Below are positions 6,083 to 36,716 of a DNA stretch of 40,466 nt, piece after piece. Within the stretch, counting starts at the first letter, position 1. Each line of letters starts with the position of its first letter. The translations under genes were made by a program, and so were the position numbers. Below the pieces are notes generated by a model. The model was not told the origin of the DNA. It was given only the letters and a program-made list of their open reading frames with translations, and ran no database searches. The stretch is from Bacillus sp. 103mf (GTDB lineage Bacteria; Bacillota; Bacilli; Bacillales; Bacillaceae_G): assembly GCF_900116295.1 (NCBI RefSeq), contig NZ_FPAF01000009.1, positions 113,767 through 154,232 on the forward strand. Reading direction: 5' to 3'.

Positions 6083-6218
6083 GCAATCTCTCCAGTTATG
6101 CTTACGAAGTTAGCTGTCGGGTTCGGACCTTGAAGGGTACCCTACTGTAAAAGATTCACCCCTAGTAAGCTACTGCTTACAATAATGGTTCCTCCGCTCC
6201 ATATGGATTCAGCAAAAA
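6083..6218 (-). ncRNA. c-di-AMP riboswitch (ydaO/yuaA aptamer)
   Basis: Read on minus, the segments follow the ydaO consensus in order: GCTGAATCC hairpin, GAGCGGAGGAACCATT, GGGGTGAATC, AGTAGGGTACCCTTCAAGG, TCCGAACCCGACAGCTAAC, TTCGTAAGC, then GGAGAGA. All the highly conserved blocks of the RF00379 family are present. It reads toward the ABM-fold gene at 6023. No classical terminator stands between aptamer and gene, but CATAAC near the aptamer 3' end can pair with GTTATG 15 nt later, a possible expression platform. Off or on logic cannot be read; most family members switch transcription off when c-di-AMP is bound. Confidence 0.88.
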
Positions 6219-6252
6219 GTATTTATATAAAATATAATACTATTCAGAAAAA

Positions 6253-16118: not shown

Positions 16119-16240
16119 CTATATAAATCTGTTTTCATGTGTCGATACATAAGTCGCGGCTATGCATAATACACCATGCCCCGCACTTGCTTGCTGAAAC
16201 CACGCATGTGGCAGAAAAGGGCCCTGAGCGCTTCTGTAGA
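16119..16240 (-). repeat. Dispersed ~190-bp repeat family, copy 2
   Basis: On minus it reads AGAAGCGCTCAGGGCCCTTT, then TCTGCCACATGCGTGGTTT, GTGCGGGGCATGGTGTATTA, GCATAGCCGCGACTTATGT and ends near AATTTATATAG-like sequence. The 5' third of the family consensus is missing. It lies between the APC permease gene and the rRNA methyltransferase leader. Confidence 0.7.
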
Positions 16241-16302: not shown

Positions 16303-16335
16303 GTTGCAATAAAAATTTAATCGTGTTAGTGTCTT
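16303..16335 (+). promoter_or_regulatory. Candidate promoter and inverted repeat of the methyltransferase leader
   Basis: TTGCAA followed after 17 bp by TAGTGT is a moderate sigma-A-like promoter. CTAACACG (16279-16286) and CGTGTTAG (16322-16329) form an inverted repeat enclosing the -35 element, a possible operator. Transcription from here would include the leader ORF at 16376. Confidence 0.4.
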
Positions 16336-16375
16336 TATGGGTTAAAACCTATACATCTACAAAGGAGTTAATTTC

Positions 16376-16405
16376 ATGATTATTCAATTCATTCGATATA
16401 GATAG
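16376..16405 (+). CDS. Leader peptide MIIQFIRYR of the rRNA methyltransferase attenuator
   Basis: A nine-codon ORF, ATG to TAG, with an excellent ribosome binding site (AAAGGAG at 16361-16367, 8 nt before ATG). The peptide MIIQFIRYR ends in Arg-Tyr-Arg, the R/K-x-R/K class of sequence at which macrolide-bound ribosomes are known to stall in resistance-gene leaders such as ErmDL. It ends 5 nt before the first arm of a terminator-like hairpin, and the RlmA(II)-like methyltransferase follows. A ribosome stalled at the final codons would cover the start of that arm and block the hairpin. It is too short for normal gene calling. Function is inferred from position, Shine-Dalgarno strength and motif. 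Confidence 0.7.
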   Translation: MIIQFIRYR

Positions 16406-16409
16406 TGAC

Positions 16410-16485
16410 AGGTATAGACTACTTTAAAATCCGACTCGTATTTTTTTGAAAATATGATGAGGGTTTATTTGTCTATGCCTTTTTC
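16410..16485 (+). promoter_or_regulatory. Transcription attenuator before the rRNA methyltransferase
   Basis: AGGTATAGAC (16410-16419) pairs with GTCTATGCCT (16471-16480) with one G-U pair, followed by TTTTTC. An inner hairpin forms around TATTTT-tttg-AAAATA (16439-16455). The first arm can alternatively pair with CTATAC (16349-16354), ahead of the leader peptide. These mutually exclusive pairings around a leader peptide are the layout of antibiotic-responsive attenuators. Confidence 0.65.
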
Positions 16486-16515
16486 ATTTATCTAAAAATG
16501 AATGAGGTGGCTTCT

Positions 16516-17403
16516 TTGTATAAAATGAACAAAAGAATGCAGAGCGCAGAATATTTAAGTAAATTTGAACATATTTTCAAGTGTCCTATTTGCGACTCAA
16601 CAATGAAGGTTTTTGAGTTAAAGAGTTTAATCTGCTCAAATAACCATACATTTGATTTTACTAAACAAGGATATATCAACTTGACAACTCAACTAGTAAA
16701 AACTAAATACACTAAGGAACTTTTTGAAGCGCGAAGAAAAATTATTGCAGAGGATGGCTTTTTTGCACTATTAAGTCAGGTAATTGTTGAAAGCATAAAT
16801 AAGCATGTTGCTGTTAAAAAAGAATCAATATCTGTAATTGATATGGGATGTGGCGAAGGTTCTCACCTAACTAGCATTTGTGAAATCGCTAGTTCTGCTT
16901 ATAAAAAAATAGTTACAGGAGTAGGGATTGATCTTTCTAAAGAAGGTGTTTTGGTAGCCGCTAAGAACTACACTAATAAGATTTGGACTGTTGCCGACCT
17001 AGCAAATACACCATTTAAAGATAAGCAATTTGATATTATTCTGAATATCTTATCACCTTCCAATTATGCAGAATTTAATAGATTGTTAAAAGCTGATGGT
17101 TTAGTGATTAAAGTCGTTCCTGGAAGTGACTACTTAAAAGAATTAAGAGAAATTATATTCGATGGATCTGAAAAACAATCTTATTATAATGTTGATACTG
17201 TTGAACGATTTAATGAGAACTTCCAATTGATAGATAGTTCAAGATTATGTTATACCGTGACACTTGATAGTCTATCAATGCAATCGTTAGTTCAAATGAC
17301 TCCTTTATTATGGGCGACCACAGAAAAACAAGTTAAATCATTCTTGGAAGGGAGTTCAGCTCAAATCACTGTTGATTTAGAAATATTAATCGGTAAGAAC
17401 TAA
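16516..17403 (+). CDS. RlmA(II)/TlrB-like 23S rRNA (guanine-N1) methyltransferase
   Basis: A SAM-dependent methyltransferase of the RlmA family, which modifies G745 or G748 in helix 35 of 23S rRNA; TlrB-type members give resistance to tylosin-like macrolides. The N-terminal zinc ribbon is CPIC...C-S-N-N-H with THE family pattern HTFDFTKQGYINL. The SAM motif is VIDMGCGEGSHL, followed by GVGIDLSKEGV, ADLANTPFKDKQFD, ILNILSPSNYAEF and VKVVPGSDYLKEL, closely following E. coli RlmA. TTG 16516 is chosen because GAGGTGG (16504-16510) precedes it by 5 nt; ATG 16498 has no ribosome binding site and ATG 16525 is 14 nt away. A leader peptide and attenuator precede it, suggesting drug-inducible expression. 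It sits between two same-orientation repeats. Confidence 0.85.
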   Translation: MYKMNKRMQSAEYLSKFEHIFKCPICDSTMKVFELKSLICSNNHTFDFTKQGYINLTTQLVKTKYTKELFEARRKIIAEDGFFALLSQVIVESINKHVAVKKESISVIDMGCGEGSHLTSICEIASSAYKKIVTGVGIDLSKEGVLVAAKNYTNKIWTVADLANTPFKDKQFDIILNILSPSNYAEFNRLLKADGLVIKVVPGSDYLKELREIIFDGSEKQSYYNVDTVERFNENFQLIDSSRLCYTVTLDSLSMQSLVQMTPLLWATTEKQVKSFLEGSSAQITVDLEILIGKN

Positions 17404-17500
17404 CTTTATGTCTTTATTCTGCAATCGGGCGTAATTACGAATCAACACTGGTAGAAAACGAATAAACTTTTTTATAAAAATCTCATCCTTAACTAAAAAG

Positions 17501-17545
17501 AAAAACTCCATTTTGATCAATCTTTTTTCAAAATGGAGTTTTTGT
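17501..17545. terminator. Terminator after the rRNA methyltransferase
   Basis: AAAAACTCCATTTTG pairs with CAAAATGGAGTTTTT over a 13-nt loop, flanked by A- and T-rich DNA. Confidence 0.85.
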
Positions 17546-17583
17546 ATTTGTTGTTAAATAATGATTGAAGGGAAAGTTCTATT

Positions 17584-17851
17584 CAAACTTTATTCTCACC
17601 CTACATCTACACATGGCCAGACGCTCTTGCCATCCCGAAAAGAAAGAGGGACGTCTATATACATAAATTCATTTTCATGTTTCAACATCCAAATCGCTGC
17701 TACGAAAAATACCCCATGCCCAGCACTCGCTTACTCCTTTTGTTTTAAAACATGGCAAGTAGCAGAAAAGGGCCCTGACCGCATCTACGCATGGCCGGTT
17801 TATCTCGCCTTCCCAAAAAAGAAGGTTTTTGATCTTATATATATTGTCTAA
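17584..17851 (-). repeat. Dispersed ~190-bp repeat family, copy 3 with partial second unit
   Basis: On minus: TATATATAAGATCAAAAACC, CCGGCCATGCGTAGATGCGG, TCAGGGCCCTTTTCTGC, AAACAAAAGGAGTAAGCGAG, GTATTTTTCGTAGCAGCGAT, ATGAATTTATGTATATAG. Near 17660-17590 the family's 5' part begins again (CGGGATGGCAAGAGCGTC, TGGCCATGTGTAGATG), so this is one full unit joined to a truncated second one. An open frame at 17561-17851 on plus lies wholly in the repeat and is not a gene. Confidence 0.75.
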
Positions 17852-26121: not shown

Positions 26122-26200
26122 GATCTTGTTTTATTCGAGTTATCCAGTCACTAAGGGATAACTCTTTTTGTATATATTTTCTTTAAGTAGAGAAATCTAA

Positions 26201-26395
26201 CTATATAAATTCGTTTTAAATTTTCGAAATATAGGCCACTGCTATGCAAAATACAACAGGACCACTACTGGCTTTCTCCCTTTGTTTTACACCTCGCATG
26301 GGGCAGAAAAAGGATCTGACCGTTTCTATGCATAGCCAGATGCTCTCGTCCCCCTCTAAAAAGAAATGGGTTTTTATGTCGCTTTTTTAACTCAT
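26201..26395 (-). repeat. Dispersed ~190-bp repeat family, full copy 5
   Basis: On minus: AAAAGCGACATAAAAACCC, GAGAGCATCTGGCTATGCAT, AGAAACGGTCAGATCCTTTT, TCTGCCCCATGCGAGGTGTA, AAACAAAGGGAGAAAGCCAG, GTATTTTGCATAGCAGTGGC, AAACGAATTTATATAG. It fills the gap between the amidohydrolase gene and the ger operon and is among the most complete copies. Confidence 0.75.
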
Positions 26396-33040: not shown

Positions 33041-33224
33041 CTATATATAAGTTGAAAAACGACATAAAACCTAGGGGCACGAGAACGTTTGATTGCGCAT
33101 AGAAATGATTAGGGCCTTTTCCTGCCACATATAATGTTTAAAACAAAAGGAGAAAGTGAGTGTAGTTCATGTTGTATTCTGCCTAGCAGCAACTTATTCG
33201 AAGAATTTAAATGGGTATATAAAT
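33041..33224 (+). repeat. Dispersed ~190-bp repeat family, full copy 6
   Basis: CTATATATAAGTTGAAAAAC, GACATAAAACCTAGGGGCAC, AGGGCCTTTTCCTGCCACAT, AAACAAAAGGAGAAAGTGAG, TATTCTGCCTAGCAGCAACT, AATTTAAATGGGTATATAAA. It abuts the short bcr1 derivative on its left with only about 3 bp between. Confidence 0.7.
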
Positions 33225-36521: not shown

Positions 36522-36716
36522 TTATATACAAATTGAATAACAGATATAAAAAACTTTCTTTTAGATGGACGAGAGCATTTGGCTATGCATAGAAGCGGTC
36601 AGGGCTTTTTCCTGCCACGTGCAAGGTTAAAACCAAAGGGAGAAAGCGAGCGGGGATCACTTTTTGTTTTGTATAGCTGCGATTTATGTGTCAAAAGTTT
36701 AAAATGGGTATATAGA
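36522..36716 (+). repeat. Dispersed ~190-bp repeat family, full copy 7
   Basis: TATATACAAATTGAATAACA, CTTTCTTTTAGATGGACGAG, AGCATTTGGCTATGCATAGA, AGCGGTCAGGGCTTTTTCCT, GCCACGTGCAAGGTTAAAAC, CAAAGGGAGAAAGCGAGCGG, TTGTATAGCTGCGATTTATG, GGGTATATAG. It begins 5 bp after the pstA stop, exactly where pstB would be expected. Confidence 0.75.

Follow-up and report, generated by a model that had tools for sequence, protein, structure and literature searches.

What controls the methyltransferase gene that begins near position 16500 of the window (the whole 40,466-nucleotide stretch of Bacillus sp. 103mf DNA analysed here), and to which drug would a nine-codon open reading frame in front of it respond? 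Ribosomes stall in a macrolide-dependent manner at R/K-x-R/K sequences in short leaders such as ErmDL, a behaviour that Erm-type leaders would have in common with the leader in the window. Erm itself methylates A2058, and its leaders act by translation attenuation, with neither a terminator nor a NusG pause; methylation of G748 by TlrB-type enzymes gives resistance to tylosin-class drugs. The initial annotation took drug-controlled attenuation of an RlmA(II) homologue to be undescribed, but precisely such a switch, with the same leader peptide, is the subject of a study in Bacillus subtilis (Yakhnin et al. 2019, PMC6851288).

In that paper, the B. subtilis gene yxjB was renamed tlrB, and its nine-residue leader MIIQFIRYR is followed by tandem stop codons. 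Toeprinting revealed tylosin-dependent stalling at RYR, lost in an AYA variant, while erythromycin causes no induction. The switch combines a NusA-dependent terminator, a hairpin that sequesters the Shine-Dalgarno (SD) sequence, and NusG-dependent pausing at U129–U131: without nusG induction is nearly abolished, and a pause mutation reduces it. The authors counted 180 leaders with R/K-X-R/K before tlrB homologues in Gram-positive organisms. We conclude that the window very probably contains an orthologue of this leader attenuator together with its RlmA(II)-type methylase: as read from its sequence, it has the same leader peptide, tandem stops, a terminator, an SD-sequestering fold, a T-rich pause motif and an RlmA-type methylase. 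As such, the element adds one genome to a known, well-studied switch and is of modest interest in itself.

The features of the window are listed below with the evidence for each. A1 is an alignment of 11 sequences; A3, fitted to the structure, comprises 41 leaders that precede RlmA-type genes, one of which is interrupted; A6 is a MAFFT alignment of 28 sequences built without structure.

6084–6224, reverse strand: c-di-AMP riboswitch
16304–16332, forward strand: candidate promoter TTGCAA-17-TAGTGT, weak, read from the sequence
16358–16520, forward strand: predicted SD-sequestering fold, helices 16358–16370/16508–16520, 16388–16395/16499–16506 and 16399–16408/16484–16494 (fold; A3)
16361–16367, forward strand: leader SD AAAGGAG (sequence; partly conserved in A1)
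16376–16405, forward strand: leader ORF MIIQFIRYR with its TAG, RYR being 16394–16402 (sequence)
16410–16419, forward strand: 5' arm of the terminator stem (folds; stem kept in A3 and in the structure-free A6)
16427–16466, forward strand: upper stems 16427–16432/16461–16466 and 16436–16444/16449–16457 (fold; putative pause hairpin by analogy)
16464–16476, forward strand: TTTATTTGTCTAT, putative T-rich NusG-type pause motif (invariance in A1; fit to published bases)
16471–16484, forward strand: 3' arm of the terminator stem (16471–16480) and U-run (16480–16484) (folds, A3, A6)
16498–17403, forward strand: RlmA-family 23S rRNA methyltransferase, TlrB-like; ORF from ATG 16498, likely start TTG 16516 (profiles)
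16504–16518, forward strand: methylase SD GAGGTG (16504–16509) and likely TTG start (16516–16518) (sequence, A1, plasmid annotation)
40281–40466, forward strand: start of a 16S rRNA gene

The leader ORF is present as initially annotated: AAAGGAG lies 8 nt before the ATG at 16376, the codons of MIIQFIRYR occupy 16376–16402, and TAG (16403–16405) is followed by an in-frame TGA (16406–16408), so that the SD-led, nine-residue peptide ends in RXR ahead of tandem stops, as does the tlrB leader. The identity of the peptide with that of B. subtilis tlrB also supports the reading of RYR as an R/K-x-R/K stall motif. Further upstream, TTGCAA-17-TAGTGT is a candidate promoter; by eye, TTGCAA-17-TAATGT or -TAACTT precedes the leader at loci L001–L003, and a transcription start near 16339 would give a leader of 177 nt, as published for B. 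subtilis, which is a positional fit only. A consensus promoter scanner did not list TTGCAA-17-TAGTGT, and a simple best-score scan picked other hexamers in the window. The candidate −35 is spanned by an 18-nt inverted repeat (16280–16297/16313–16330, 89% complementary), possibly an operator or a product of chance, which by eye was not seen in the upstream sequences of L001–L003.

Folding of 16335–16500 recovered, to within 1 nt, the 10-bp hairpin that had been described as ending at a T-run 13 nt before the methyltransferase (−39.9 kcal/mol, z −4.27; none of 200 shuffles equally stable). Its lower stem pairs AGGUAUAGAC (16410–16419) with GUCUAUGCCU (16471–16480) and is followed by UUUUU (16480–16484), the last U lying 13 nt before ATG 16498. 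For the RNA as it would be terminated (16360–16486) the fold is only moderately better than shuffles (z −2.49; 2 of 200 equally stable), and a consensus terminator scanner listed no terminator at the window leader. Structure and conservation nevertheless argue for an intrinsic terminator between leader and gene. Within the 11 closest sequences no covariation was detected because these are too similar, and the set was therefore widened to the 41 leaders of A3, in which 93.4% of cells pair, as against 30–44% with partners slid by 1–3 columns. Two-sided changes occur at 9 of 33 pairs (5.2 in shuffles, 4 of 500 reaching the observed value) and in 51 cells (17.0 in shuffles, 0 of 500 reaching it). 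A6 recovered the lower stem as 8 pairs, one of which is U-A in 14 and C-G in 12 of the 28 sequences. As for the upper stems, helix 16427–16432/16461–16466 belongs to the A3 structure (89.3% of cells paired) and helix 16436–16444/16449–16457 is absent from it.

While the initial annotation was right about the leader, the terminator and the methylase, it overlooked two further elements, namely the fold that sequesters the SD and the pause motif of NusG type. Extending the folded segment to 16335–16530 gave a structure that closes over the methylase SD (−57.4 kcal/mol, z −6.73; 0 of 200 shuffles as stable), in which leader codons 5–7 (16388–16395) and the leader SD region (16358–16370) pair with the methylase SD and start. 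The second and third SD-sequestering helices of A3 are paired in 93.9% and 89.3% of cells, the outermost helix lying outside the alignments; a hairpin that sequesters the SD of the gene, as in tlrB, is thus predicted by the fold and kept among relatives. In the pause region, TTTATTT through CTATG is invariant across the 11 sequences of A1, TTNTTT is found in 38 of 39 methylase leaders, and TTTATTT in 30 of the 39. The stretch TTTATTTGTCTATG (16464–16477) fits the published B. subtilis bases T123–T125, C128, U129, A130 and U131, and 16474–16476 would correspond to the pause sites U129–U131. When the 24 bases named in B. subtilis were compared without gaps by their published numbering, the window matched at 10, L002 at 11, L115 at 9, L117 at 8 and L116 at 19, against a background (the best of 800 offsets in L115) of 13 that only L116 exceeds. 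The window differs from most relatives by a 4-nt gap before the methylase SD, which is also seen in L003.

The methylase is likely to start at TTG 16516 rather than at ATG 16498, because the ATG overlaps the SD region GAATGAGGTG, which is invariant in A1, and because public annotation places the start of two plasmid homologues 18 nt inside the ATG-equivalent match. The assignment to the RlmA family holds by profile, Zn ribbon and structure: the protein combines a Zn ribbon (Zn_ribbon_RlmA, PF21302, 41.7 bits, cut-off 27) with an SAM methyltransferase fold (Methyltransf_11, 35.2 bits, cut-off 21.2), as RlmA(II)/TlrB enzymes do, and RlmA 1p91 is its sole PDB match at E up to 0.001 (E 8.6e-31). 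Since its scores stay below the cut-offs of the named subfamilies (RlmA G745, NF008300, 170.3 bits against a curated cut-off of 303; Erm32, 88.6 against 550; ChrB, 80.6 against 620; MyrA, 65.7 against 625), the protein sequence is compatible with either G748 or G745, and it is the leader, together with the analogy to B. subtilis tlrB, that points to G748 of 23S rRNA as the target.

How widely is the arrangement kept? A protein scan of one genome per species (84,980 species), which reaches close relatives only, returned 34 loci; 27 of these were read for leaders, and seven Pseudoalteromonas loci were scanned by string match alone. The leader is found within 8 substitutions at 10 of the 34 loci. 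L004 has V in place of the first R (MIIQFIVYR), residue 8 is variable among relatives (RYR, RFR, RLR), and L005 retains a weak leader remnant only (36.7 bits with R1, a covariance model of the 11 leaders that includes the leader ORF). The closest relative found, L001 of Siminovitchia terrae (82%), reads ATT where the ATG of its leader (930–959) would be and keeps the rest of the leader. Applied with strict filters to the order sample, R1 matched in 10 of 396 genomes, nine times before an RlmA homologue and once before an alpha/beta hydrolase; its weak matches to the reverse strand of several leaders (window E 0.044, L018 5e-5) were set aside, as they are expected of long hairpins. Among the best 30 of 79 methylase homologues in the order sample, 8 have this leader, 2 have unrelated ones, and 20 lack a short SD-led ORF ending in R/K-x-R/K. 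At gathering thresholds, Rfam has no family over the window leader or over the leaders at six relatives' loci; L141 gave one BsrC sRNA match, elsewhere than the leader.

A comparison of 14 loci (flanks up to 4 kb, ORFs of at least 100 codons, E up to 1e-15) found the methylase to be the only ORF in common with the window at 13 of them, 12 of which also have the leader, so that leader and methylase seem to move as a unit. At L009 two neighbours match distant window genes, with 24% and 38% identity.

The surroundings of the unit include a dispersed intergenic repeat (16120–16235, 17660–17786 and 26196–26375 on the forward strand; 1430–1519, 33111–33190 and 36546–36650 on the reverse strand), the pieces of which, where at least 80 nt long, are 69–77% identical. 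A direct copy lies on either side of the leader-methylase unit, and the unit may have come in, or been exchanged, between this pair. After the methylase, a 22-nt inverted repeat with a T-run (17495–17549, 91% complementary) is likely to be a terminator readable from both sides.

Related genes occur on plasmids as well. A tlrB homologue of Priestia filamentosa (L172, plasmid NZ_CP015327.1) has the leader MIIQFMRYR, and its neighbourhood includes an msr-type ABC-F gene with a predicted role in macrolide resistance. Staphylococcus accounts for 19 of the 77 matching plasmid records; staphylococcal plasmids of about 3 kb, such as L175 (S. aureus NZ_CP119346.1), carry an RlmA-like methyltransferase of about 40% identity, before which no short SD-led ORF was seen in L175, the one such plasmid read. 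The match of CP063895.1 (15742–16494), a sequence deposited as a Klebsiella variicola plasmid and coming from human fecal samples, takes in parts of the leader and of the methylase region, 29% of the query at 74%; the record is possibly mislabelled or contaminated.

By analogy with B. subtilis, from which stalling, pausing, termination, the drug and the methylation site are carried over to the parts, conservation, covariation and peptide identity observed here, the switch would work as follows. In the absence of drug, the short leader would be translated, the ribosome would depart, and the hairpin 16410–16480 would terminate transcripts at about 16480–16486; in transcripts that escape, the leader codons and leader SD would pair with the methylase SD and start, keeping the start closed. 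When a tylosin-type macrolide occupies the exit tunnel, the ribosome would stall at R-Y-R, Tyr being in the P site and Arg in the A site; it would then cover the foot of the terminator stem as well as the helices beneath, allowing the methylase to be made. A pause of RNA polymerase at about 16474–16476 would keep polymerase and ribosome in step. The methylase would methylate G748 of 23S rRNA, and once ribosomes were protected the induction would end.

When 16382–16413, our own estimate of the footprint of the stalled ribosome, was masked, only 6 of the 10 stem pairs were left and the free energy of the RNA up to 16486 rose from −32.7 to −20.3 kcal/mol, in keeping with the initial suggestion that a ribosome stalled on RYR would mask the first arm of the terminator and prevent termination. 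The same masked fold does not free the methylase SD (mean unpaired 0.195 without the ribosome and 0.082 with it), because the leader SD can still pair with the start region. The model therefore agrees with the transcription arm of the mechanism and not with its translation arm, although a real ribosome may block the pairing of the leader SD sterically.

Three other readings deserve weighing. The same mechanism could answer to another inducer, be it another 16-membered macrolide, a ketolide or a lincosamide: the authors of PMC6851288 suggest that drug specificity may shift as leaders diverge, and residue 8 does differ among relatives, but we regard this as improbable, given that the peptide in the window does not differ by a single letter from the one reported there to respond to tylosin and not to erythromycin. 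That the leader is inert and the gene an ordinary constitutive RlmA would suit the 20 leaderless homologues among the 30 read and the missing leader ATG of L001, yet it is very hard to reconcile with a stem and an SD pairing that are kept with two-sided changes in 41 leaders, or with a peptide identical to that of the working B. subtilis leader. The slimmest chance of all goes to a classical antiterminator switch, in which stalling would free 16349–16354 to pair with the first arm of the hairpin as the initial annotation had noted; we rejected it, as the 6 Watson-Crick pairs possible in the window shrink to at most 3–5 in 10 relatives (L007 has 8 with G-U allowed), the pairing thus not being conserved over the 11 leaders compared, 41% of shuffles offer an equally long helix (G-U allowed), 16336–16353 folds on itself in the predicted structure, and no overlapping antiterminator was identified in B. 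subtilis (PMC6851288).

The tlrB-type attenuator that we favour for the window seems not to be confined to methylase genes. In the tenth genome matched by R1 (L084/L128), the leader MIIKYIRLR precedes the alpha/beta hydrolase P0002, which by profile is a macrolide esterase (NF052610, 479.3 bits, cut-off 420) and whose nearest PDB chain is annotated as EstT. The cut-off was exceeded by all eight proteins tested, P0002 and those of seven related loci (445–509 bits); in the window, tblastn with P0002 as query detected no macrolide esterase gene, even with E values up to 1 allowed. Searching with the esterase profile identified 38 places in 37 of 396 genomes, 36 genomes being above the cut-off. 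Thirty esterase places were read by a pattern-free scan for an SD plus a short ORF: 19 have a short SD-led ORF beginning M-I/V-I-K-W/Y 87–141 nt upstream, 17 of these ending in R/K-x-R/K, and 11 have none (L088–L090, L093–L095, L097, L101, L103, L104 and L106). By eye, several of the leaderless esterases share another upstream stretch (AAAGGAAATA...CATTTCTCTAA), which may be a different control element.

We also searched with the leader pattern ATGATHATHMARTDBRTHMRNNNNMRNTRR, using the reversed pattern as control. In the order sample there were 39 matches, from 38 of 396 genomes (reversed pattern, 0), and in the class sample likewise 39, from 37 of 398 genomes (reversed pattern, 1); the samples overlap, with 4 places common to both, leaving 74 distinct ones. 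Downstream genes were initially judged from their opening residues, after which tblastn with P0001 and P0002 was run at every pattern place; 10 relatives were also checked by profile. Thirty places lie before an RlmA homologue and 31 before an EstT-type esterase (one of them, L129, matching over 171 residues only and below the family cut-off), one precedes the interrupted RlmA frame of L181, one is an SD-led leader without a gene (L125), and 11 are not leaders, having been set aside because they lack a convincing SD, overlap other genes (AtpB-like or PurL-like, as identified by eye), contain a stop within the frame or fail to end at codon 10. As these sequences share the pattern residues by construction, we claim no residue conservation from them. 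L181 (862–1300) has the intact leader MIIQFIRFR and attenuator, after which the RlmA frame is interrupted early; in L125 (1501–1530, reverse complement) no gene was found downstream of MIIKFIRLR, which makes this leader an orphan or a relic.

Identical peptides serve both genes. MIIQFIRLR occurs in 6 of 39 methylase leaders and in 5 of the 11 esterase leaders of the FIRxR type, and MIIKFIRLR in 3 of 39 and 5 of 11, respectively. Genomes G419 and G634 hold both genes, each with its own leader; the esterase form is found on a Bacillus arachidis plasmid and the methylase form on a Priestia megaterium plasmid. Of the 11 FIRxR-type esterase leaders, R1 matches 10 with E values no higher than 7.5e-5; the eleventh, L158, stands at 0.12. 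Because R1 contains the leader ORF, we built R2, which leaves the ORF out, from 28 methylase RNAs cut so as to begin with the stop codon of the leader. R2 matches 9 of the 11 at E up to 3.5e-6, and all nine matches begin either at that stop codon or 3 nt upstream of it; L156 stands at 0.0077 and L152 at 0.3. On 28 other loci (14 KW-type, 11 leaderless esterases, L125, L174 and L175) the best R2 value is 0.039, and L143, at 0.39, gives the only match in register with a leader. Ten of the 11 FIRxR-type esterase leaders contain TTTATTT, as against none of 18 KW-type ones (18 of 21 leaders counted; L098, L113 and L114 left out). Taken together, the R1 and R2 matches and TTTATTT suggest that the FIRxR-type esterase leaders share the whole methylase attenuator. 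The KW-type leaders do not share it; in them, CUCCG can pair with the esterase SD CGGAG over five pairs, all intact in 11 of 13 with no two-sided changes, and the layout would be one of translation attenuation.

We consider it likely, on these sequence comparisons, that the tlrB-type leader is a portable sensor of 16-membered macrolides serving two unrelated defences in Bacilli, the methylase and the EstT-type esterase. The MII[QK]FIRLR version would carry the whole attenuator, with terminator, pause motif and SD-pairing leader codons; the MIIKW[I/V][R/K]xR version would have kept or converged on the peptide, while a different RNA (CUCCG/CGGAG) hides the esterase SD. The outputs differ in kind: EstT-like esterases hydrolyse the drug, whereas the window methylase would methylate the ribosome. 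The EstT-like NF052610 macrolide esterase genes of Bacilli (Zhou et al. 2025, PMC12704417) have, in related genomes, the same nine-residue leader type, some with the same attenuator RNA. PMC6851288 mentions, in general terms, that stalling is thought to control genes of macrolide-inactivating enzymes. The words 'leader' and 'attenuat' are absent from the main text of PMC12704417, which deals with Gram-positive macrolide esterases, and from the text available of the EstX paper PMC11214618; 'macrolide esterase' and 'leader peptide' occur together in one review, which in its available text does not link the two. We came across no account of macrolide esterases under the control of a leader in the literature searched, outside which most subscription papers lie, and as far as that literature goes the link between esterase and leader, well supported by sequence, is new.

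Many of the recently recognised Gram-positive macrolide esterases are thereby predicted to be drug-inducible, a control that expression tests from a foreign promoter would miss. Furthermore, these leaders form a natural set of nine-residue peptides, varying at residues 4, 5, 6, 7 and 8 and coupled to two outputs, which may help to establish which residues sense tylosin and not erythromycin.
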